Shown: piece by piece, positions 8,557 through 55,235 of the stretch
Position numbering within the stretch: position 1 is the first letter of the stretch
Layout of the letters: each line of letters opens with the position of its first letter
From: Actinacidiphila yanglinensis
GTDB lineage: Bacteria; Actinomycetota; Actinomycetes; Streptomycetales; Streptomycetaceae
Assembly (NCBI RefSeq): GCF_900107965.1
Contig: NZ_FNVU01000005.1
Location: 124,001-188,000, forward strand
Reading direction: 5' to 3'
DNA length: 64,000 nt
Made by a program: the position numbers and the translations under genes
The notes under the pieces: model-generated
What the model saw: the letters and a program-made list of their open reading frames with translations, nothing else
Databases searched by the model: none
Told to the model about the DNA's origin: nothing

Positions 8557-9531
8557 TCAGTACGCCAGCACGCGGTCGACGGCGTCGAGCACGCGGTCCA
8601 GGCCGGGAAGGTACTCCTCCTCGAGCCTGGCCGGCGGGTACGGCGCGTGGAAACCGCCCACCCGCAGCACCGGGGCCTCCAGAGCGTAGAAGCTGCGCTC
8701 GGTGATCCGCGCGGCGATCTCCGCACCGGTACCGAAGAACACCGGGGCCTCGTGCACCACGACCAGCCGGCCGGTCTTCTCCACCGACGCCTGCACGGTG
8801 TCGAAGTCGAGCGGCGAGATCGAGCGCAGGTCCACCACCTCGATGCTGCGGCCCTCGTTCGCGGCCGCGGCCGCCACCTCCAGGCACACCTTCACCATCG
8901 GTCCGAAGGCCGCCAGCGTGACGTCGGTGCCGGCCTGGGCCACCACCGCCTTGTGCAGGTCGGCCGGCACGGACGAGACGGCCACCTCGCCCTTGTCCCA
9001 GTAGCGGCGCTTCGGCTCGAAGAAGATCACCGGGTCGTCGCACTCGATGGCCTGCTGCATCATCCAGTACGCGTCGGAGGCGTTCGACGGCGAGACCACC
9101 TTCAGCCCCGCGACGTGCGCGAAGAGCGTCTCCGGGGACTCGCTGTGGTGCTCGACCGCGCCGATGCCACCGCCGTAGGGGATGCGGATGACGATCGGCA
9201 GCTTGATCTTGCCGAGCGCCCGGGCGTGCATCTTCGCCAGCTGCGTGACGATCTGGTCGTAGGCGGGGAAGACGAAGCCGTCGAACTGGATCTCCACCAC
9301 CGGGCGGTAGCCGCGCAGGGCCAGCCCGATCGCGGTGCCCACGATGCCGGACTCGGCGAGCGGGGTGTCGATCACCCGGCCCTCGCCGAAGTCCTTGAAC
9401 AGGCCGTCGGTGATCCGGAAGACACCCCCGAGCCGGCCGACGTCCTCCCCCATCACCAGGACCTTCGGGTCGTTCTCCAGCGACGTGCGCAGCGACTCGT
9501 TGAGCGCCTTCGCGATGGCCATCTGCGTCAT
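8557..9531 (-). CDS. bkdB1: branched-chain 2-oxoacid dehydrogenase E1 beta, copy 1
   Basis: A 324-residue E1 beta subunit (transketolase-like pyrimidine-binding and C-terminal domains). Family features include VLVMGEDVGRLGGVFRITDGL, the glycine-rich RIPYGGGIGAVEHHSESPE and PVIFFEPKRRYW. With E1 alpha it carries out thiamine-diphosphate-dependent decarboxylation of 2-oxoisovalerate and related acids. ATG 9531 lies one base after the bkdA1 stop with an AAAGGGG ribosome site inside the end of bkdA1. The bkdC1 gene starts 10 bases after its stop, so the operon is tightly coupled. Confidence 0.93.
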   Translation of the reverse strand: MTQMAIAKALNESLRTSLENDPKVLVMGEDVGRLGGVFRITDGLFKDFGEGRVIDTPLAESGIVGTAIGLALRGYRPVVEIQFDGFVFPAYDQIVTQLAKMHARALGKIKLPIVIRIPYGGGIGAVEHHSESPETLFAHVAGLKVVSPSNASDAYWMMQQAIECDDPVIFFEPKRRYWDKGEVAVSSVPADLHKAVVAQAGTDVTLAAFGPMVKVCLEVAAAAANEGRSIEVVDLRSISPLDFDTVQASVEKTGRLVVVHEAPVFFGTGAEIAARITERSFYALEAPVLRVGGFHAPYPPARLEEEYLPGLDRVLDAVDRVLAY

Positions 9532-9532
9532 G

Positions 9533-10699
9533 TCAGTGCCCCTTTCCGGAGCCGGCCGCCCCATGGGATGCGGCGGGAGCGTCCTCGAAGGAGGCCAGGT
9601 ACTCGGCGAACTGGGCGCGCTCCTCGTCGACCAGCGCGTGCCCGTCGGCGTAGACGTTCTCGAACATCGCCATCGGGTCGGGGTTGGGCATGCCGCGCAC
9701 CCCGTCCCGGACCCGCTTCGCCAGCGCGTCGCTCTCGGCGTCCAGGCCCGCGTAGAAACCCTCGTCGGCCAGGCCCTGCTTGTCGAGGTGGGCGCGCAGC
9801 CGGGCGATCGGGTCCTTCGACGCCCACTCCTCGCGCTCCTCGTCGCTGCGGTAGCGGGTCGGGTCGTCGGTGGTGGTGTGCGCGCCCATCCGGTAGGTGA
9901 ACGCCTCCACCAGCATCGGGCCCTGCCCGCTGCGGGCGTGCTCCAGGGCCGCCCGGGTGACCGCGAGCACCGCCAGCACGTCGTTGCCGTCCACCCGGAC
10001 GCCCGGGAAGCCGTAGCCGGCCGCGCGCTGGTAGATCGGCACCCGGGACTGCTTCTCGGTCGGCTCGGAGATCGCCCACTGGTTGTTCTGGCAGAAGAAC
10101 ACCACGGGCGCGTTGTAGACCGCCGCGAAGGTGAAGGACTCCGCCACGTCGCCCTGGCTGGAGGCGCCGTCGCCGAAGTACGCGATCACCGCGGCGTCCG
10201 CGCCGTCCTTGGCCACCCCCATCGCGTAGCCGGTCGCGTGCAGCGTCTGCGAGCCGATGACGATCGTGTAGAGGTGGAAGTTGTTCTCGTTCGGGTCCCA
10301 GCCGCCGTTGTTGACCCCGCGGAACATGCCCAGCAGGTTCAGCGGGTCCACGTCGCGGGTCCAGGCCACCCCGTGCTCGCGGTAGGTCGGGAAGATGTAG
10401 TCGTCCGGGCGGGTGGCCCGCCCGGAACCGATCTGGGCGGCCTCCTGGCCGAGCAGCGAGGCCCACAGTCCCAGCTCGCCCTGCCGCTGCAAGGTGATCG
10501 CCTCGGCGTCGAAGCGGCGGGTCAGCACCATGTCCCGGTACAGGCCACGCAGCTCATCCGGGGTCACGTCGATGGAGTACTCACTGTGCTCGACGCGGTC
10601 GCCCTCGGGGGTCAGTAGCTGCACGAGCTCGGGCTCGCCCCCACGGCGCTTCGCGCCGCCGCGGGTGGTCCTCCGCGCGGCAGTGCTCTTCACGCTCAC
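9533..10699 (-). CDS. bkdA1: branched-chain 2-oxoacid dehydrogenase E1 alpha, copy 1
   Basis: A 388-residue E1 alpha subunit. The thiamine diphosphate motif is visible as AYFGDGASSQGDVAESFTFA through to FFCQNNQWAIS, and the phosphorylation-loop region is RMGAHTTTDDPTRYR. GTG 10699 is chosen because GGAGGAG lies five bases upstream; frames further upstream have no support. It is the first gene of the minus-strand operon, with a long upstream region shared with the divergent phosphotransferase. A second, full bkd set lies 15-18 kb away in the same window. Confidence 0.93.
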   Translation of the reverse strand: MSVKSTAARRTTRGGAKRRGGEPELVQLLTPEGDRVEHSEYSIDVTPDELRGLYRDMVLTRRFDAEAITLQRQGELGLWASLLGQEAAQIGSGRATRPDDYIFPTYREHGVAWTRDVDPLNLLGMFRGVNNGGWDPNENNFHLYTIVIGSQTLHATGYAMGVAKDGADAAVIAYFGDGASSQGDVAESFTFAAVYNAPVVFFCQNNQWAISEPTEKQSRVPIYQRAAGYGFPGVRVDGNDVLAVLAVTRAALEHARSGQGPMLVEAFTYRMGAHTTTDDPTRYRSDEEREEWASKDPIARLRAHLDKQGLADEGFYAGLDAESDALAKRVRDGVRGMPNPDPMAMFENVYADGHALVDEERAQFAEYLASFEDAPAASHGAAGSGKGH

Positions 10700-24165: not shown

Positions 24166-25533
24166 TCACACCGCGGCGAGCAGCACCGCCGGGTCCTGCA
24201 CGCAGTCGGCCACGAACCGGAGGAAGCCGCCCGCCGTCCCGCCGTCGCACACCCGGTGGTCGAAGGTGAACGACAGCTGCACCACCTGCCGCACCGCCAA
24301 CTCCCCCTGGCGCACCCACGGCTTGGCCGCGATCCGGCCCACCCCGAGCATGCCCGCCTCCGGGTGGTTGAGGATGGGCGTCGAGCCGTCCACCCCGAAC
24401 ACGCCGTAGTTGTTGAGCGTGAAGGTCCCGCCGGTCAGCTCGGCGGGCGTCAGCGTCCCGGTCCTGGCCGCCTCGGTCAGCCGGGCCATCTCCGCCGAGA
24501 GCTGGGCGGTGGTCCTGGCCTGCGCGTCCCGCACCACCGGTACGACAAGGCCGCGCTCGGTCTGCGCGGCGAAGCCGAGATGCACCGCGGGCAGCCGGAC
24601 GATCTCGCCGCGGGCGGTGTCCACCGACGCGTTCAGCTCGGGGTGCCGGGCCAGCGCCGCGGTCACGATCCGGGCCATGAGCGCCAGGACCGAGATCCGG
24701 GTGCCGCCGTCTCCCGCCGCCGCGTTCATCGCCGCGCGGGCCGCGAGCAGTTCGGTGGCGTCCGCGTCGACCCAGCAGGTGGCGTCGGGGATCTCCCGCC
24801 GGCTGCGCGACAGCTTCTCCGCGACCGCGCCGAGGATCCCGCGCAACGGGACGCGCACCTCGCCCTCGGCGGCCGGCCGTGCCTCCGTCGTCGCGACTGC
24901 CGCGCGGGTGGTGCCCGCACCGGCACCCGCCGCGCGGTCCACGTCGGCCCGCATGATCAACCCGTCCGGGCCGCTGCCGGTCAGCGCCCGCAGATCCAGG
25001 CCCTTCTCCCGGGCCAGCCGGCGCACCAGCGGCGAGATGACCGCGACCGGTCCGCCGTCCGGGTGAGTGCCGCCGCGGACCGCGGCGGCTTCGCGCTCCG
25101 GCGGCACCGGCGGTGCGTGGTCGACCGCCGCGCTCACCGCCTTGATCCGGCTGCGCCGACGGGCGGTCGCCGCCCCGGTGCCGTAACCGACCAGTACGTT
25201 CCCCGAGCCCTCGGCCGAGCCGTCACCCTGGACGCTCTCCGCGCCCTCAGCGCTCCCGGCCGTGGCGGCGGCCGCCACGCCCGCGTCCGCACCCACCGCG
25301 ACCGTCACCAGCGGGCGGCCGACCGAAAGGGTGTCGCCCTGCGCGCCGAAGCGGGCGGTGACCACCCCGCCGTAGGGACAGGGCACTTCCACCACGGCCT
25401 TGGCCGTCTCCACCTCGACCAACGGCTGGTCGACGGTGACGACCTCGCCGACCTCGACCAGCCAGCGCACGATCTCGGCCTCGGTCAGCCCCTCGCCGAG
25501 GTCGGGCAGCGTGAACTCCTTGACGGCGGCCAT
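24166..25533 (-). CDS. bkdC2: branched-chain 2-oxoacid dehydrogenase E2, copy 2
   Basis: A 455-residue E2 subunit with one lipoyl domain (EVETAKAVVE), a subunit-binding domain (VRRLAREKGLDLRALTGSG) and a catalytic domain ending in the active-site motif TFDHRVCDGGTAGGF. The sequence differs clearly from copy 1 throughout, especially in the linker, so this is an old duplication. ATG 25533 shares one base with the bkdB2 stop and has a GGAGGAGGGG ribosome site. Third gene of the bkd2 operon. Confidence 0.93.
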   Translation of the reverse strand: MAAVKEFTLPDLGEGLTEAEIVRWLVEVGEVVTVDQPLVEVETAKAVVEVPCPYGGVVTARFGAQGDTLSVGRPLVTVAVGADAGVAAAATAGSAEGAESVQGDGSAEGSGNVLVGYGTGAATARRRSRIKAVSAAVDHAPPVPPEREAAAVRGGTHPDGGPVAVISPLVRRLAREKGLDLRALTGSGPDGLIMRADVDRAAGAGAGTTRAAVATTEARPAAEGEVRVPLRGILGAVAEKLSRSRREIPDATCWVDADATELLAARAAMNAAAGDGGTRISVLALMARIVTAALARHPELNASVDTARGEIVRLPAVHLGFAAQTERGLVVPVVRDAQARTTAQLSAEMARLTEAARTGTLTPAELTGGTFTLNNYGVFGVDGSTPILNHPEAGMLGVGRIAAKPWVRQGELAVRQVVQLSFTFDHRVCDGGTAGGFLRFVADCVQDPAVLLAAV

Positions 25534-26570
25534 CACCCCTCCTCCCACTGCAGGCGCCCCACGGCGTCGAGGATGCGGTCGACTCCCGGCAGGTGATGCC
25601 GCTCCAGCATCGGCGGCGGGTAGGGGATGTCGAACCCGGCCACCCGCAGCACCGGCGCCTGGAGGTGGTGGAAGCAGCGCTCGGTGATCCGGGCGGCGAT
25701 CTCCGCGCCCGCGCCGCCGAACCCGGCCGACTCGTGCACCACCACGGCCCGCCCGGTCCCCCGGACGACCGCCGCCACCGTCTCCTCGTCGAAGGGCACC
25801 AGGCTGCGCAGGTCCACCACGCCCAGGTCCCAGCCCTCTTCCTTCGCCGCTTCCGCGGCCTCCAGGCACACCGGCAGCGACGGACCGTAGGTGATCAGGG
25901 TGGCGCTGCGCCCGCTGCGCCGCACCACCGCGCGGCCGATCGGCGGGACCTCGCGCGGCTCCTGCGGCGACCAGTCGGCCTTCGACCAGTACAGCCGCTT
26001 GGGCTCCAGGAACACCACCGGGTCGTCGGAGGCGATGGACGCGCGCAGCAGCCCGTAGGCGTCCTCGACGGTCGCGGGCGTCACCACATGGAGCCCCGGG
26101 GTGTGCAGGTAGTACGCCTCGGAGGAGTCGCTGTGGTGCTCGACCCCGCCGATGCCGCCGCCGTAGGGGATGCGGATGGTGATCGGCAGCGGCAGCGCGC
26201 CCCGGGTGCGGTTGCGCATCCGGGACACGTGGCTGACCAGCTGCTCGAAGGACGGGTAGGCGAACGCGTCGAACTGCATCTCGACCACCGGCCGCAGCCC
26301 GTACATCGCCATGCCCACCGCGGTGCCGAGGATGCCCGCCTCGGCGAGCGGGGTGTCGGTGCAGCGGTCGTCGCCGAAGTCGCGGGCCAGGCCGTCGGTG
26401 ATCCGGAAGACGCCGCCGAGGGTGCCGACGTCCTCGCCGAGCACGTGGACGGCCGGGTCGGCGACGAGCGCGTCGCGCAGCGCCTGGTTGAGGGCCTGCG
26501 CCATCGTCGCCGGCTTCTGCGCGACGGGCGCGGCCGCCGGGGCGGGCGCCGTGGAGGAGCTGGGGCTCAT
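25533..26570 (-). CDS. bkdB2: branched-chain 2-oxoacid dehydrogenase E1 beta, copy 2
   Basis: A 345-residue E1 beta subunit with VHVLGEDVGTLGGVFRITDGL, RIPYGGGIGGVEHHSDSSEA and PVVFLEPKRLYW. A 20-residue Ala/Pro extension precedes the conserved fold; ATG 26504, just before the conserved AQALNQALRDAL, would remove it. ATG 26570 overlaps the bkdA2 stop as ATGA, supporting the longer form. It works with BkdA2 in the thiamine-dependent step. Confidence 0.92.
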   Translation of the reverse strand: MSPSSSTAPAPAAAPVAQKPATMAQALNQALRDALVADPAVHVLGEDVGTLGGVFRITDGLARDFGDDRCTDTPLAEAGILGTAVGMAMYGLRPVVEMQFDAFAYPSFEQLVSHVSRMRNRTRGALPLPITIRIPYGGGIGGVEHHSDSSEAYYLHTPGLHVVTPATVEDAYGLLRASIASDDPVVFLEPKRLYWSKADWSPQEPREVPPIGRAVVRRSGRSATLITYGPSLPVCLEAAEAAKEEGWDLGVVDLRSLVPFDEETVAAVVRGTGRAVVVHESAGFGGAGAEIAARITERCFHHLQAPVLRVAGFDIPYPPPMLERHHLPGVDRILDAVGRLQWEEG

Positions 26571-27667
26571 GACTGCTGCTCCGCTTCCAGCTCGGCCCGG
26601 AGCATGGCTTCCTGGTCGCGCAGTTGCTGGGTGGGTTCGGCGTAGACGTGCGCGAACAGCTCCATCGGGTCCAGCCGCGGTTCGTCGTGCATGCGCTCGC
26701 GCAGGGCGGCGGCCAGGGCCTCGGCCTCGTCGGCGGTGCGCTGCCGCAGCGCGTCGTCGAGCAGGCCGCGGCCGGTCAGCTCGCGCTCCATCAGGTCGAC
26801 CGGGTCGTGGGCGCGCCAGGCCGCCACCTCGTCGTCGTCGCGGTAGCGGGTCGCGTCGTCGGCGTTGGTGTGCGCGTCGATCCGGTAGGTGACCGCCTCG
26901 ACCAGGGTGGGGCCGCGGCCCGCGCGGGCCCGGTCCACCGCCTCGGTGAGCACCTGGTGGACGGCCGCCGCGTCGTTGCCGTCCACGAGGCGGCCGGGCA
27001 TGCCGTAGCCGACGGCCTTGTGGGCGAAGCTCGGCGCGGCGCTCTGCTTGGCCAGCGGCACGGAGATCGCGAAGCCGTTGTTCTGCACCAGGAAGACCAC
27101 CGGGGCCTGCCAGACCGCCGCGAAGTTCAGCGCCTCGTGGAAGTCGCCCTCGCTGGTGCCGCCGTCGCCGACCATCGCCAGCGCCGCCACGTCGTCACCG
27201 CTGAGCCGGGCGGCGTGCGCGAGGCCGACCGCATGGGGCAGCTGGGTGGCCAGCGGGGTGCTGAGCGGGGCCACCCGGGTCTCGCGCGGGTCGTAGCCGG
27301 TGTGCCAGTCGCCGCGCAGGAGCGTCAGGGCCTCGACCGGGTCCACCCCGCGCGCGACCACCGCGAGGGTGTCGCGGTAGCTGGGGAAGAGCCAGTCGCG
27401 CGGGCCGAGCGCGAGGGCGGCGGCGATCTCGCACGCCTCCTGACCGGTGCTCGACGGGTACACCGCGAGCCGGCCCTGCTTGGTCAGGGCGGTCGCCTGC
27501 CGGTTGAACCGGCGGCCCCGCACCAGCTGTCCGTACAGCTCCGTGAGCAGCGCGGGCGCCAGCCGGGCGGCCTCGGGGGTGCCGAGCAGCCGGAACGGCG
27601 CCGCGTCGGGCAGCAGGGGCCCGGCTTCGGTGCGCGGGCGCCAGGCGGGGGTGTCGAGGACGGTCAT
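26567..27667 (-). CDS. bkdA2: branched-chain 2-oxoacid dehydrogenase E1 alpha, copy 2
   Basis: A 366-residue E1 alpha subunit with the thiamine diphosphate motif MVGDGGTSEGDFHEALNFAA to FLVQNNGFAIS and the phosphorylation-loop region RIDAHTNADDATRYRDDD. ATG 27667 has an excellent AAGGAGG ribosome site; the upstream open frame is not supported. First gene of bkdA2-B2-C2, divergent from the Lrp-type regulator, with a palindromic operator about 70 bases upstream. Confidence 0.93.
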   Translation of the reverse strand: MTVLDTPAWRPRTEAGPLLPDAAPFRLLGTPEAARLAPALLTELYGQLVRGRRFNRQATALTKQGRLAVYPSSTGQEACEIAAALALGPRDWLFPSYRDTLAVVARGVDPVEALTLLRGDWHTGYDPRETRVAPLSTPLATQLPHAVGLAHAARLSGDDVAALAMVGDGGTSEGDFHEALNFAAVWQAPVVFLVQNNGFAISVPLAKQSAAPSFAHKAVGYGMPGRLVDGNDAAAVHQVLTEAVDRARAGRGPTLVEAVTYRIDAHTNADDATRYRDDDEVAAWRAHDPVDLMERELTGRGLLDDALRQRTADEAEALAAALRERMHDEPRLDPMELFAHVYAEPTQQLRDQEAMLRAELEAEQQS

Positions 27668-27733: not shown

Positions 27734-27792
27734 AACCGATTGTTCGGTCGCCGGAGGCATTTTGGCTACGGGGTCGTTCGGCCTGTGGACAA
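27734..27792. promoter_or_regulatory. two-block control element between bkdA2 and bkdR
   Basis: Block 1 (27734-27750) reads AACCGATTGTTCGGTCG and contains the palindrome ACCGA-N4-TCGGT. Block 2 (27779-27792) reads CGGCCTGTGGACAA and includes a perfect reverse copy of the DnaA box TTGTCCACA. The same two blocks, in the same order and orientation, recur near paaN. On the minus strand block 2 also supplies a -35-like TTGTCC for bkdA2. Confidence 0.6.
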
Positions 27793-27850
27793 ACGGTTCT
27801 GCACAGCCTGAGATGGAGCCAGTACGTCCATGCTAGGGAGTCCCGGGGGG

Positions 27851-28375
27851 ATGGCGAGAGAACAGATGGCCGAAGAAGATCAGGGGGTGCGACCTCTGGA
27901 CCCGATCGACCGCGCGATCCTGCGCCTGTTGCAGGAGGACGGTCGGGCCTCGATACGCTCCGTGGCCGAACGCGTACACGTCTCCCGGGCCAACGCCTAC
28001 GCCCGGATCAACCGTCTCGTCGAGGACGGAGTGATCCGGGGATTCAGCGCCCGGGTCGATCATGAGCGGGCCGGGCACGGCGCATCCGCGTACATCACGC
28101 TCAAGATCGTCCAGAACTCGTGGCGGACGGTACGGAAGGAACTCGTCACTCTTCCGGGTGTCGTCCACATCGCGCTGGTGAGCGGGGACTTCGACGTCCT
28201 GCTGCTGGTGCACACCGTCGACAACCGCAGCCTGCGCGAGCTGGTGCTGACCCGGATCCAGGCGATCAAGGAGGTCCTCAGCAGCCGCACCCTGCTGGTC
28301 TTCGAGGAGACCGACCTCGTGGTCGGGGACTGGCCCCTGGGGGAGGGCGGCGCCGACGAGGCCCCGACGCCCTGA
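27851..28375 (+). CDS. bkdR: Lrp/AsnC-family regulator of the bkd operon
   Basis: A 174-residue regulator. The N-terminal helix-turn-helix reads LDPIDRAILRLLQEDGRASIRSVAERVHVSRANAYARINRLVEDGVIRGF, followed by a RAM/AsnC ligand domain with HIALVSGDFDVLLLVHTVDNRSL. The divergent position beside bkdA2 matches Streptomyces bkdR, where Lrp-type proteins control branched-chain amino acid catabolism. ATG 27851 is preferred because AGGGAG lies ten bases upstream; ATG 27830 is in frame. Confidence 0.9.
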   Translation: MAREQMAEEDQGVRPLDPIDRAILRLLQEDGRASIRSVAERVHVSRANAYARINRLVEDGVIRGFSARVDHERAGHGASAYITLKIVQNSWRTVRKELVTLPGVVHIALVSGDFDVLLLVHTVDNRSLRELVLTRIQAIKEVLSSRTLLVFEETDLVVGDWPLGEGGADEAPTP

Positions 28376-28405
28376 GGAGCGGCGCCCCCGGCGTACGGGG
28401 CGGTC

Positions 28406-29011
28406 CTACGGGCGCGCGCCCGGCGGTATGCGCAGCCCGTCGAAGGCCAGCCGCACCACCGCGTCCGCGACCTGCTCGCCCTGAGCGGCGCCGCGGCCGT
28501 CGGGGCGGTACCACTCCACCACCGAGTTGATCATGCCGAACAGCAGCCGCGTGGCGAGCCGGGGCTCCACGTCCGCGCGCAGGTCGCCCTCGGCGACGGC
28601 GGCCTTGAGCAGCGCGGCCACCCGCTGGTCGAACTCCCGGCGCCGCTCCATCGCCCGCCGCTCGGTGCCGGTGTTGCCGCGCACCCGCAGCAGCAGGGTG
28701 ACGTAGGGCAGTTCCTCGACCAGCACGTCGGTGCAGCGGCGGGTGACGTACTCCAGCCGGTCGACCGCACGGCCGGTGGTCGCGCCGGACTCGTCCAGGA
28801 CGCCGAACAGACCCTCCAGGGCGCGGCCGACCGCCCGGCTCAGCAGTTCCTCCTTGCCGCGCACGTGGTGGTAGATCGACGACTTGGAGATGCCCGCGGC
28901 CTGCGAGAGGTGCTCCATGGACGTGCCGTCGTAACCGCGCTCGTTGAAGACCTCGACGGCCACGGCGAGCAGCGAGTCCGGCGTGTAGGTGTCGCGCTTG
29001 GGCATGGTCAT
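28406..29011 (-). CDS. TetR-family regulator, PaaR-like
   Basis: A 201-residue TetR protein with DNA-binding segment VAVEVFNERGYDGTSMEHLSQAAGISKSSIYHHVRGKEELL and a helical ligand domain. ATG 29011 overlaps the stop of the 3-hydroxyacyl-CoA dehydrogenase gene (ATGA); ATG 29005 is in frame. Its place in an operon with that dehydrogenase and beside paaN suggests control of the phenylacetate/beta-oxidation genes. It is the best candidate to bind the palindromes at 27734 and 30613, which resemble the ACCG...CGGT operators of PaaR-type TetR proteins. Binding is inferred. Confidence 0.87.
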   Translation of the reverse strand: MTMPKRDTYTPDSLLAVAVEVFNERGYDGTSMEHLSQAAGISKSSIYHHVRGKEELLSRAVGRALEGLFGVLDESGATTGRAVDRLEYVTRRCTDVLVEELPYVTLLLRVRGNTGTERRAMERRREFDQRVAALLKAAVAEGDLRADVEPRLATRLLFGMINSVVEWYRPDGRGAAQGEQVADAVVRLAFDGLRIPPGARP

Positions 29012-30537
29012 GAGCAGATCACACCTTGCGCGGTCGCCGCACGCCGTCTCAGCTCCGGGCCGGGTGCGTACCTCCCGGTCGGATACCAGGCGTGCAGCCC
29101 GTCCAGCAGGTCCCGCACGTAGGGCAGCGAGATCCGCTCGCCCCACTCCAGCGGCCCGAGCGGGTAGTTCACGCCCAGCCGCATCGCGGTGTCCACGTCG
29201 TGCGGCGACGCCACCTCGCGGGCGACGGCGTCCAGCGCGAAGTCCACCAGCATCGCCACGGTGCGCGCCACCACCATGCCGGGCACGTCACGGATGACGC
29301 TGACCTCCTTGCCCATGGCCTGGAACAGCCCGGTCGCCTCCGCGACGGCGTCGGCGTGCACCCCGGCGGCCGGCGCGATCCCCACCCTGGTCGCGGCCCG
29401 GTAGTCCAGTGCAAGGTCGAACCGGATCGACGGCTCGCCCGGCAGTCGGCCGTCGGCCAGGTGGAGGCGGACACCGCCGGGCAGCACCAGCGTGCCGGGC
29501 CGGCCGGGCTCCGCCGGCTCCCGGCGCACCTCCACGCGGGACTCCTCGGCGAGCGCGGACAGCTCGGCCGCCGGCCCCAGTTCCCCGCGAACGGTCACGA
29601 ACGGCGGTGCCAGGGCCGCCTCGGCGGTGTGCGGCGAGGTCGCCGCTGCCAGGTCGGCCGCGCTGTGCCCGGGGCCGTGCGGGAACCAGCCGCGCCCCGA
29701 CTTGCGGCCCAGCCGCCCCGACTCCACCAGCCGGCGCTGCGCCAGCGACGGCCCGAACTTCGGATCGCGGCCGAACGCCTCCCACACCGAGCGCGTCACC
29801 GCCTCGTTGACGTCCTGGCCGATCAGGTCGGTCAGCTCGAACGCGCCCATCGCGAAGCCGCCGCTCTCGCGGAGCAGGGCGTCGATGGTGGCGGGATCGG
29901 CGGCGCGCTCCTCGTAGACCCGCAGCGCCTCGGCGTAGAAGGGGCGGGCCACGCGGTTGACGAGGAAGCCCGGGGTGTCCGTGCAGCGCACGGGGGTCTT
30001 GCCCCAGGCGGCGGCGAGCTCGTAGGCCGCGGTGACGGCGGCCGGGTCGCCGGCGGCGCCGGCGACCACCTCGACCAGCGGCAGCAACGGGGCCGGGTTG
30101 AAGAAGTGCATCCCGACCAGCCGTCCGGGCCGGCGCAGCCCGCTCGCGACGGCGGTCACCGACAGCGAGGAGGTGTTCGTCGCCAGCAGGCAGTCGTCAC
30201 CGACCGCCCGCTCCACCTCGGCGAAGAGTCGCCGCTTGACGTCCAGGTCCTCCACGACGGCCTCCACCACGAGCCGGGCGGGCACCAGGTCCGCCACGCT
30301 CTCGGCCGCCGAGAGCCGGGCCAGGGCCGACACGCGCGCGTCGGTGCCGAGCCGGCCCTTCTCGACCAGCCGGTCCAGCCGCGCCGCGACCGCGTCCACG
30401 GCCGCGAGGGCCTGCCCCGGGGCGGCGTCGTGGAGCAGGACGCGGTGGCCGGCGAGGAGCGCCACCTGCGCGATCCCCTGGCCCATGGTGCCCGCGCCCA
30501 CGACGGCGACGGTGCTGCTCAGGTCCGGTGCGCTCAC
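29008..30537 (-). CDS. 3-hydroxyacyl-CoA dehydrogenase, long (PaaH/PaaC-like) form
   Basis: A 509-residue NAD-dependent dehydrogenase. The N-terminal Rossmann fold has VAVVGAGTMGQGIAQVALLAGHRV; the conserved NTSSLSVTAVA and GMHFFNPAPLLPLVEVV surround the catalytic His. Two C-terminal helical domains are present: one with DTPGFLVNRVARPFYAEA and a second with DVPGMVVARTVAMLVDFALDAV. This duplication is typical of the 3-hydroxyadipyl-CoA dehydrogenases of phenylacetate breakdown. GTG 30537 has GAGGAG nine bases upstream. Operon with the TetR gene. Confidence 0.9.
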   Translation of the reverse strand: MSAPDLSSTVAVVGAGTMGQGIAQVALLAGHRVLLHDAAPGQALAAVDAVAARLDRLVEKGRLGTDARVSALARLSAAESVADLVPARLVVEAVVEDLDVKRRLFAEVERAVGDDCLLATNTSSLSVTAVASGLRRPGRLVGMHFFNPAPLLPLVEVVAGAAGDPAAVTAAYELAAAWGKTPVRCTDTPGFLVNRVARPFYAEALRVYEERAADPATIDALLRESGGFAMGAFELTDLIGQDVNEAVTRSVWEAFGRDPKFGPSLAQRRLVESGRLGRKSGRGWFPHGPGHSAADLAAATSPHTAEAALAPPFVTVRGELGPAAELSALAEESRVEVRREPAEPGRPGTLVLPGGVRLHLADGRLPGEPSIRFDLALDYRAATRVGIAPAAGVHADAVAEATGLFQAMGKEVSVIRDVPGMVVARTVAMLVDFALDAVAREVASPHDVDTAMRLGVNYPLGPLEWGERISLPYVRDLLDGLHAWYPTGRYAPGPELRRRAATAQGVICS

Positions 30538-30590
30538 GGTTGCACTCTCCTCGCCAGGTCCTCGACGTCGCACGGGGAAGTTGTCCACAG

Positions 30591-30629
30591 GCCGGGGACG
30601 GTCCTCTTGTCCCGACCGAACATTCGGTT
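30591..30629. promoter_or_regulatory. two-block control element and promoter between hbd and paaN
   Basis: Block 2 (30591-30604, read on the minus strand) is CGGCCTGTGGACAA and contains a perfect DnaA box; block 1 (30613-30629) contains the palindrome ACCGAACATTCGGT. A plausible paaN promoter has TTGTCC at 30607-30612 and TAATCT at 30629-30634 with 16 bases between, so the palindrome fills the spacer, a classic repressor position. Confidence 0.6.
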
Positions 30630-30680
30630 AATCTAGCGGTGTCCCCGCCACTCAGCCCAGCTCGACGAGGAGTTGGTCCC

Positions 30681-32357
30681 ATGTCCGCCGATCTGTCCAC
30701 CGTGCTCCTGGTCGACCGCCACCGCGGCACCCTCGACCAGGCGCTGGAGGCCGTCAGGACCCGCGCGTTCTGGTCGCCGCACCCCGAGCACCCCAAGGCG
30801 TACCCCGACCCGGACGCGGGCCGCGCCGCCTTCGAGGCGCTCGCCGGCCGCCGCTTCGCGCTCGACCAGCCGGGCACCGACGGATGGACCGGCGACGAGC
30901 GCTCGCCGTTCGGCGTGGAGTTGGGCGTCCACTACCCGCACCCCGATCCCGACGTGCTGCTGCCCGCCATGCGCGCGGCGATGCCCGTCTGGCGCGCGGC
31001 GGGACCCGAGGCCCGCGCCCTGGTCTGCCTGGAGATCATCGCGCGGATCAATGAGCGGACCCACGAGTTCGCGCACGCCGTGATGCACACCAGCGGCCAG
31101 GCGTTCACCATGGCCTTCCAGGCGGGTGGGCCGCACGCGCAGGACCGCGCCGTCGAGGCGGTGACGTACGCGTACATCGAGCAGGTGCGCACCCCGGAGA
31201 GCGCGGAGTGGACCAAGCCGCAGGGCAAGCGGGACCCGATCGGGCTGCGGAAGACCTTCACCGCCGTGCCCCGCGGCATCGGCCTGGTCATCGGCTGCAA
31301 CACCTTCCCGACGTGGAACGGCTATCCCGGCCTGTTCGCCTCGCTCGCCACGGGGAACGCGGTGCTCGTCAAGCCGCACCCGCGGGCGGTGCTGCCGCTC
31401 GCGCTGACCGTGGAGATCGCCCGCGAGGTGCTGGCGGAGGCGGGATACCCGCGGGATCTGGTCTGCCTCGCGGTGGACCACCCGGGTGAGGGGCTCGCCA
31501 AGACCCTGGCGCTGCGCCCCGAGATCCGCCTCATCGACTACACCGGGTCCACCGCCTTCGGCGACTGGCTGGAGGCCAACGCGCGGCAGGCGCAGGTCTT
31601 CACCGAGAAGGCCGGCGTCAACACCGTGGTGATCGACTCGACCGGCGACTACCGCGGCATGCTCGCCAACCTCGCCTTCTCGCTGTCCCTGTACAGCGGC
31701 CAGATGTGCACCACCCCGCAGAACCTGCTGATCCCCCGCGACGGCATCGCCACCGACCAGGGGGACAAGACCTTCGACGAGGTGGTCGCCGACCTCGCCG
31801 CGGCCGTCGACCACCTGCTGGGCGACGACGCCCGGGCCAACGCCCTGCTCGGCGCGCTGGTCAACCCGGACGTGAAGTCCCGCCTCGACGCCGCCCCCGG
31901 CATCGGCGACGTCGCGCTGGCCTCCCGCGCGGTCACCCACCCCGACTTCCCGGACGCGGTGGTCCGCACCCCCGCGATCGTCAAGCTCGACGGCGCGAAG
32001 ACCGACGACGACTCCCCGTACCTGTCGGAGTGCTTCGGCCCGGTCTCCTTCGCCGTGGCCGTCGACTCCACCGCCGGCGCGCTGGAACTGCTGCGCCGCA
32101 CCATCCGGGACAAGGGCGCCATGACCGTCGCCGGGTACACCACGTCCGCGCAGGTCGAGCAGGAGCTGGAGGAGGTCTGCTTCGAGGAGTGCGCCCAGCT
32201 CTCCCTGAACCTCACCGGCGGGGTGTACGTCAACCAGACCGCGGCGTTCTCCGACTTCCACGGCTCGGGCGGCAACCCGGCGGCGAACTCGGCGCTGTGC
32301 GACGGCGCCTTCGTCGCCAACCGCTTCCGCGTGGTGGAGGTGCGCCGCCCGGCGTGA
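30681..32357 (+). CDS. paaN: phenylacetic acid degradation protein PaaN (aldehyde dehydrogenase family)
   Basis: A 558-residue member of the PaaN2-type aldehyde dehydrogenase family. Features include FTAVPRGIGLVIGCNTFPTWNGYPG (cofactor region), LIDYTGSTAFGDWLE, the catalytic Glu in FTEKAGVN and the nucleophilic Cys in LYSGQMCTTPQN. Family members are thought to oxidise the ring-opened semialdehyde in aerobic phenylacetate catabolism. ATG 30681 has GAGGAG upstream; the long upstream frame is dismissed. The rest of the paa genes are not in this window, so it may serve a wider aldehyde role. Confidence 0.88.
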   Translation: MSADLSTVLLVDRHRGTLDQALEAVRTRAFWSPHPEHPKAYPDPDAGRAAFEALAGRRFALDQPGTDGWTGDERSPFGVELGVHYPHPDPDVLLPAMRAAMPVWRAAGPEARALVCLEIIARINERTHEFAHAVMHTSGQAFTMAFQAGGPHAQDRAVEAVTYAYIEQVRTPESAEWTKPQGKRDPIGLRKTFTAVPRGIGLVIGCNTFPTWNGYPGLFASLATGNAVLVKPHPRAVLPLALTVEIAREVLAEAGYPRDLVCLAVDHPGEGLAKTLALRPEIRLIDYTGSTAFGDWLEANARQAQVFTEKAGVNTVVIDSTGDYRGMLANLAFSLSLYSGQMCTTPQNLLIPRDGIATDQGDKTFDEVVADLAAAVDHLLGDDARANALLGALVNPDVKSRLDAAPGIGDVALASRAVTHPDFPDAVVRTPAIVKLDGAKTDDDSPYLSECFGPVSFAVAVDSTAGALELLRRTIRDKGAMTVAGYTTSAQVEQELEEVCFEECAQLSLNLTGGVYVNQTAAFSDFHGSGGNPAANSALCDGAFVANRFRVVEVRRPA

Positions 32358-55006: not shown

Positions 55007-55235
55007 TTGTCCACACGGTTATCCACAGTGGGGAAAAGGTCAGAAGATCTGTGGATAACCTCTACGGAGTTGACGCCGGTACGACCGGTGGTCGCTGCGG
55101 CGGCCACCGGTCTTTCGTTGATCTTGCAGGTGAAACCGGGCGCCAGGCGGCCTGGTGACCCTCCGCGCAGCCCTTCCCACCAGTTGTGCACAACGGGGTG
55201 AGCTGCCCCCGGTCGTCCCGTCCCGCTGTGGATAA
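55007..55235. promoter_or_regulatory. cluster of DnaA boxes downstream of crgA
   Basis: Four perfect or near-consensus nine-base DnaA boxes lie in 230 bases with no gene: TTGTCCACA at 55007-55015, TTATCCACA at 55019-55027, and reverse TGTGGATAA at 55050-55058 and 55227-55235. A 12-bp palindrome GTTGTGCACAAC at 55183-55194 contains two overlapping one-mismatch boxes. The region has no dnaA or dnaN beside it, so it is not the origin; it is more likely a DnaA-titration or control site, as described for a cluster in S. coelicolor. Confidence 0.7.

Follow-up and report, generated by a model that had tools for sequence, protein, structure and literature searches.

Repression of phenylacetate catabolism by PaaR and control of promoters by DnaA are both known kinds of regulation. 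In Burkholderia cenocepacia, PaaR is a TetR-family repressor of paaA, paaH and paaZ, which lie in separate paa units, and its operator, ACCGACCGGTCGGTT, is situated between the -35 and -10 elements (PMC2770484; PMC9493321). Palindromes of the same form, ACCGA-N4-TCGGT, are found together with DnaA boxes in two promoter regions of a 64,000-nucleotide stretch of the Actinacidiphila yanglinensis genome, referred to here as the window (C20:124001-188000 of genome G000, an assembly of 43 contigs): the intergenic region between bkdA2, of the branched-chain 2-oxo-acid dehydrogenase (BCDH) operon, and bkdR, and that between paaH and paaN. Comparison of these sequences with those of relatives points to a joint reading that we consider probable, namely a single PaaR regulon in which the TetR protein encoded at 28406-29011 would be the repressor and the box would be a separate DnaA site modulating the promoters.

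The described systems resemble this locus in part. B. cenocepacia belongs to another phylum, and the available parts of the reports on its PaaR mention neither a bkd target nor a DnaA box (PMC2770484; PMC9493321). The PaaR proteins of Corynebacterium glutamicum and Streptomyces pristinaespiralis are, like the candidate considered here, actinobacterial TetR repressors of paa genes, the latter with the putative motif AACGA-N4-TCGGT, but the available part of that source does not name bkd as a target (PMC10933834). Control of short-chain acyl-coenzyme A (acyl-CoA) metabolism by a TetR protein, as proposed here, is represented by PccD of Saccharopolyspora erythraea, which reportedly acts on the BCDH operon (PMC8176718), and by AccR of Streptomyces avermitilis; the AccR motif GTTAA-N6-TTAAC differs from the window operator, however (PMC10933834), and neither protein is linked to phenylacetate in the available portions of these sources. 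Promoter boxes from which DnaA activates or represses, again as proposed here, are described for nrdAB, dnaA and sda, whereas a catabolic acyl-CoA regulon and a pairing with a TetR operator do not appear in the available text of that report (PMC8203912). Literature under open licence yielded no mention of bkd in a PaaR regulon, of DnaA boxes at these promoters, or of the conversion of phenylpyruvate to phenylacetyl-CoA by a Streptomyces BCDH.

In Streptomyces, antibiotic production and morphogenesis are reported to be under bkdR control (PMC8176718), and branched-chain acyl-CoA starter units come from the bkd operon. If PaaR does control bkd, phenylacetate catabolism and starter-unit supply would be placed on one switch, which would matter for strain engineering; if DnaA acts at these promoters, there would be a testable link from replication initiation to acyl-CoA catabolism in antibiotic producers. 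Were DnaA a direct transcription factor at these PaaR-controlled promoters, the supply of branched-chain acyl-CoA and phenylacetyl-CoA would be tied to phenylacetyl-CoA itself, through PaaR, and to the capacity for replication initiation, through DnaA.

Palindromes and boxes at the bkd and paa promoters

The first-pass annotation of the window described a motif of two blocks shared by the two promoter regions. Its first block, AACCGATTGTTCGGTCG at 27734-27750 with a near-copy on the minus strand at 30613-30629, is as described, and the likeness to a PaaR palindrome is borne out by the form of the site, which matches a PaaR-type operator, and by its recurrence at paaA and paaK. The second block, CGGCCTGTGGACAA, was likewise found at 27779-27792, and the perfect DnaA box attributed to this block is present in both copies (TTGTCCACA, exact at 27784-27792 and 30581-30589). 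The second copy had been misplaced, however: it lies, reversed, at 30581-30594 and not at 30591-30604, and therefore the gaps between the blocks are 28 and 18 bases, differing by 10 bases or one helical turn, instead of 28 and 8, differing by 20 bases or about two turns. Counted from box start to operator start, the distance is 44 bases at bkd and 34 bases at paaN.

The pair does not occur randomly in the genome, the looser form ACCGNNNNNNCGGT-N10-40-TGTGGACAA being found in G000 at these two sites only. ACCGANNNTTCGGT is present at four places in the 9.59 Mb genome: the bkd and paaH/paaN promoters, a site just upstream of paaK, the phenylacetate-CoA ligase gene (C22:253135; TIGR02155, 659.6 bits against a cut-off of 646.3), and a site that falls within a reading frame (C18:518066), where coding and intergenic labels of genome-wide sites are rough assignments from the length and GC3 of open reading frames (ORFs). 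There are 37 copies of TGTGGACAA, against 10 for a reversed-pattern control, and a simple estimate puts the chance of a box within 60 bp of two of the four operator places at about 1e-6. For the genus, in which 35 genomes were found, the looser pair is present in its bkd form in 35/35 and in its paaN form in 19/35, with two more matches elsewhere (G024, G027) and one match of the reversed control over all 35. More widely, ACCGANNNNTCGGT-N15-45-TGTGGACAA was found in 21 of 22 Streptomycetaceae (two genera) and in 0 of 224 other Actinomycetes, with a single match for the control, and all 28 matches show the bkd or paaN form by sequence. The identity of the two second blocks over 14 bases is partly generic: 5/37 boxes of the genome share all of CGGCCTGTGGACAA, and the CGGC part of the block differs among species. 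A special cause for this identity was rejected, because 23/37 boxes read CCTGTGGACAA and the rest varies in relatives.

Conservation was assessed at 80 loci, those of the 80 top-ranking TetR relatives out of 397 confirmed ones, so that selection was by TetR similarity; the closest named relatives among them come from Actinacidiphila and Streptomyces. Left out of the promoter counts were 14 loci without paaA, three without bkdA, and one fragment each of bkdA and paaN. At every testable locus ACCGA-N4-TCGGT lies within 400 bases upstream of the gene (bkdA 76/76, paaN 79/79, paaA 66/66), with the bkd copy reading ACCGAACAATCGGT throughout, and the rest of these loci holds 22 such palindromes in 1.46 Mb. 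Inspection by eye of the ORFs of loci L035 and L113 first revealed the paaA operon. Of 40 paaA promoters picked by position among the PaaA matches listed, 39 carry a PaaR-like palindrome with no more than one mismatch, and the palindrome also occurs in 30/30 further PaaA loci, a few of whose genomes are shared with the set of 40. In G000, paaA lies on contig C37 and has a degenerate palindrome, with a perfect box starting 62 bases ahead of it by our count. Block 1 is thus probably a PaaR-type operator, and the two promoter regions of the window probably belong to one PaaR regulon. The position of paaA varies across the family, from close to the chromosomal replication origin (oriC) to far out along the chromosome, and the operator spelling differs as well, which suggests relocation or replacement of paaA.

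DnaA boxes and distance from the replication origin

The 9-mer TTGTCCACA is listed as the high-affinity DnaA box of Streptomyces coelicolor (PMC4285127). Taking this Streptomyces form or TTATCCACA as a DnaA box, both window sites are exact and are predicted binding sites. Among the 80 loci, a forward box occurs in 75/76 bkd, 61/79 paaN (as TTRTCCACA) and 60/66 paaA promoters, and a reverse box in 2, 0 and 1 of them. The spacing of box to operator is 43 or 44 bases in 75/75 pairs at bkd (the box being TTGTCCACA, with TTGTCCACC in the one other locus), 32-35 in 59/66 pairs at paaN, and 44, 45 or 54 in 44/63 pairs at paaA; overall, the recurring spacings are mostly about 33, 44 and 54 bases. From the box to TTGACA at paaA the distance is 12 bases in 47/66 promoters and 23-27 in 17/66. 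The near-fixed distance between box and operator hints at a link between catabolism and chromosome replication in Streptomyces-type bacteria.

The boxes could instead be DnaA-titration or origin-domain sites, abundant round oriC and not transcriptional, with PaaR operators lying there by coincidence, a possibility to be taken seriously though not one that we expect to hold. Perfect boxes are indeed denser near dnaA: in the two of five genomes whose box lists were complete (G028, G031), their density is 120/Mb within 50 kb and falls to 0-2/Mb more than 3 Mb away, and in G000 dnaA is on the same contig as the bkd box, about 51 kb from it. The 40 paaA promoters, in which the box was scored in six spellings, follow the same trend: the perfect box is present in 7/8 promoters within about 110 kb of dnaA and in 2/2 at about 1 Mb, and in 0/24 at 1.5 Mb or more and 0/6 at unplaced distance, the one-mismatch form TCGTCCACA occurring in one of the 24 far and one of the six unplaced promoters. 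Set against this is the rarity of boxes elsewhere in the same oriC-proximal loci, with 14 in 1.46 Mb (9.6/Mb) as compared to 208 in the 0.095 Mb of the three promoters (2189/Mb), a difference of about 200-fold, and at least three of those 14 sit in promoters of genes left out as absent or fragmentary. The one-sided orientation, seen also in the 30 best-scoring PaaA loci (15 perfect forward boxes, 0 reverse), and the mostly fixed spacing of box to operator and to the -35 element likewise speak against titration sites, as does the lack of a perfect box at the four bkd promoters without an operator (0/4). Proximity to oriC as the sole explanation of the boxes is not favoured: the gradient is real, yet the boxes concentrate at operator promoters.

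Several observations nevertheless weigh against a regulatory box coupled to the PaaR operator. Together with the density gradient and the loss of the perfect box from distant and unplaced paaA promoters, they include the 19/63 paaA pairs at other spacings (56 to 286 bases), the absence of a perfect box from 15/30 best-scoring PaaA loci and from 18/79 paaN promoters, 7 of which also lack a one-mismatch form, and the lack of any DnaA box at the paaK promoter. Because close relatives are not independent, the spacing pattern also rests on few independent events. Where the perfect box is missing from paaN or paaA, its place is taken by a near-box, TTTTCCACA, TTCTCCACA, TCATCCACA or, once, TTATCAACA; none was found in the stretch examined in seven paaN promoters and one paaA promoter.

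Since the box is absent at paaK and at most copies of paaA on the chromosome arms, we concluded from the compared promoters that it does not belong to the general PaaR operator and instead forms an additional element in many of the PaaR promoters close to oriC; the idea that both blocks form a single operator was rejected on the same grounds. The first-pass proposal that one TetR protein links the two promoters through this motif was accordingly divided: a PaaR-type palindrome at both promoters and the protein of 28406-29011 as the one that likely binds it stand, on comparative evidence only, whereas the two blocks are not one operator. Block 2 is nonetheless tied to the operator by position at this locus, a relation that the first-pass annotation noted and left unexplained.

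A further alternative, which we judge unlikely, is that the second block at bkd serves as a promoter element or binds some other regulator, for example BkdR, and is a DnaA box by resemblance only. The bases ahead of the bkd 9-mer (AACCGT) are also conserved, and in 13 genomes (10 genera) outside the genus, selected for having the bkd operator, the box reads TTGTCCACA in five and deviates in eight (TTGTCCACC in seven, CTGTCCACC in one), with the operator following at 43 or 44 bases in every case. TTGTCCACC, however, is itself common in oriC, being the commonest one-mismatch box of four oriC regions, with 9 copies, and the near-boxes of paaN and paaA drift among TTTTCCACA, TTATCCACA, TTCTCCACA and TCATCCACA while TCCACA is kept in all listed but L074.

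The TetR regulator as a candidate PaaR

The TetR protein of the window has an N-terminal DNA-binding domain (PF00440, 57 bits, cut-off 24) and is a close sequence relative of SCO3833 (PDB 2iai_A, E 9.9e-86), which is listed under entry 2IAI as a "putative transcriptional regulator"; the adjacent number, SCO3832, is the bkdR of S. coelicolor (PMC8176718). No NCBIfam equivalog scored above its own cut-off, the best being the ScbR family with 64.7 of 150 bits.

PaaA is absent from 6/150 genomes of the family, and five of these six (G038, G043, G048, G051, G061) also lack the TetR protein (E 1e-20), which is carried by 15/16 sampled PaaA-bearing genomes. A bkdA2 relative (E 1e-100) was found in 17/22 genomes; the bkd operator is present in 13/15 of those with TetR (G073 being counted here, as its TetR was seen while examining bkd loci) and in 0/2 of those without (G043, G063). 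G043 retains bkd and bkdR, with a bkd promoter that has neither the operator nor TTRTCCACA. The presence of the operator at bkd, paaN, paaA and paaK and the co-occurrence of TetR with the bkd operator make the TetR protein at 28406-29011 the likely repressor at these palindromes.

Some genomes do not conform to this assignment and count against it: G016 (71% complete) has TetR without PaaA, G063 is the PaaA-bearing genome without TetR, and the bkd operator is missing from G053 and G069, both of genus g5, although each has bkd and a TetR match. In G053 the TetR has 61% identity and the paaN operator is kept, and the match in G069 is partial, at a contig end. Also to be set on this side is that the results for G038, G051, G061 and G063 come from scoring 145 of 149-216 TetR candidates. 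Binding of the palindromes by some TetR protein not encoded beside them is very improbable: although other TetR proteins use similar forms (PfmR-predicted TACCGACCGNTNGGTN; PMC7022988) and G063 keeps PaaA without this TetR, the adjacent tetR gene follows paaH and its operator in the same direction, and it is missing from five of the six sampled genomes without PaaA. As a separate observation, G043, which lost TetR, paaA and the bkd operator, has four TTRTCCACA boxes downstream of bkdR (L258, 400-668).

Promoter layout, proposed mechanism and genes of the window

The operator would overlap the candidate core promoters, which is the layout of a repressor site: at paaN, the clear case by sequence, it is flanked by TTGTCC and TAATCT, at paaA it is near the -10 element and follows TTGACA and CACCAT in many loci, and at bkd the layout is weak, the -35 and -10 assignment being a poor match to consensus, which tells against the joint reading. 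Relative to the proposed -35 element, the window boxes begin 24 bases upstream at bkd and 26 bases upstream at paaN, in the same orientation. At paaA, TTGACA and the operator are 42 bases apart in 23 loci and 32 bases apart in 19 (box at 12); this shift of exactly 10 bases, exemplified by L051 against L043, does not change the helical face on which the operator lies. Between the bkd box and operator there is also a conserved T(A/G)GCCAAAAT (27759-27768, minus strand), which resembles the AdpA motif TGGCSNGWWY, with one mismatch in the TGGCC form; AdpA acts also at oriC (PMC4285127).

In the mechanism that we propose, the TetR protein would be a phenylacetyl-CoA-responsive repressor acting on ACCGA-N4-TCGGT in core promoters, with paaN and paaH-tetR, bkdA2BC (possibly also bkdR), paaK and, through the degenerate copy elsewhere in the genome, paaABCDE as its targets. 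Phenylacetyl-CoA would release the repressor, so that phenylacetate catabolism and the keto-acid dehydrogenase would be induced together; a plausible metabolic reason is that the dehydrogenase converts phenylpyruvate to phenylacetyl-CoA, or that both compete for CoA. DnaA, on a box upstream of the -35 element that points at the catabolic gene, would then modulate the promoter, activating or limiting it from a position at which a regulator can touch RNA polymerase. Homology and conservation make repression by PaaR the most likely form of the first step, and modulation by DnaA is the most likely role of the box given its position and conservation. That DnaA acts directly, as a transcription factor, on the PaaR-controlled bkd, paaN and oriC-proximal paaA promoters in Streptomycetaceae, with the box on a preferred helical face, is put forward tentatively and with considerable doubt.

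The gene order across the locus is bkdB-bkdA2 (minus), bkdR (plus), tetR and paaH (minus), and paaN (plus); the features are collected in Table 1. Assignment to a branched-chain 2-oxo-acid dehydrogenase operon follows from tandem E1 alpha and E1 beta genes, the latter by context, next to an Lrp-type bkdR, which is named by its position beside bkdA2 and by the SCO3833 relative. The PaaH-like protein scores 553 bits against TIGR02279 (PaaH), under the cut-off of 669, and its gene overlaps that of the TetR protein by 4 bases on the same strand.

Table 1. Genes and predicted regulatory elements of the bkd-paaN region, in window positions
Feature	Position	Strand	Basis
bkdB, E1 beta, operon mate of bkdA2	25533..26570	-	ORF; name from context only
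bkdA2, 2-oxo-acid dehydrogenase E1 alpha	26567..27667	-	Pfam E1_dh; TIGR03181 417.1 bits, cut-off 411.35
PaaR-type operator (probable), bkdA2/bkdR intergenic, ACCGATTGTTCGGT (ACCGAACAATCGGT on bkdA2 strand)	27735..27748		sequence; 76/76 loci identical
Candidate bkdA2 core promoter: -35-like TAGCCA 27768-27763, -10-like AACAAT 27744-27739 inside operator	27739..27768	-	position, conservation
DnaA box (predicted) TTGTCCACA, starts 44 bases before operator on bkdA2 strand	27784..27792	-	exact sequence
bkdR, Lrp/AsnC-family regulator	27830..28375	+	Pfam AsnC_trans_reg, HTH_AsnC-type
TetR-family regulator, probable PaaR (like SCO3833)	28406..29011	-	Pfam TetR_N, TetR_C_24 above cut-off
PaaH-like 3-hydroxyacyl-CoA dehydrogenase (hbd in the first-pass annotation)	29008..30537	-	NF006124 592 bits, cut-off 508
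DnaA box (predicted) TTGTCCACA, starts 34 bases before operator on paaN strand	30581..30589	+	exact sequence
Candidate paaN core promoter: -35 TTGTCC 30607-30612, -10 TAATCT 30629-30634, operator between	30607..30634	+	inferred from sequence
PaaR-type operator (probable), paaH/paaN intergenic, ACCGAACATTCGGT	30615..30628		sequence; ACCGA-N4-TCGGT in 79/79 testable loci
paaN	30681..32357	+	TIGR02288 932.8 bits, cut-off 578.75

A second bkd-like pair of E1 alpha and E1 beta genes lies at about 8569-10567 of the window (minus strand), with 42% and 56% identity to the first; a search of this second operon for a PaaR-type palindrome gave none.

DnaA boxes are found at other places as well. In each of five genomes TTRTCCACA exceeds its reversed control about 3- to 6-fold, and several of the boxes form pairs at a distance of 18 bases; single boxes in G000 (loci L009, L014, L025, L028 and L030) lie beside rpsB, a response regulator gene, serS, ispH and a DegV gene; there may be a wider network of DnaA boxes. 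The window itself has a further perfect box at 55007-55015 (minus strand), on the dnaA side of the bkd site and about 27 kb away from it; TGTGGATAA directly precedes this box, and the two form a pair. The dnaA-adjacent stretch that we took as oriC (L267, G000:C20:201000-202600) holds ten one-mismatch boxes and zero perfect ones, whereas the bkd and paaN boxes are perfect.

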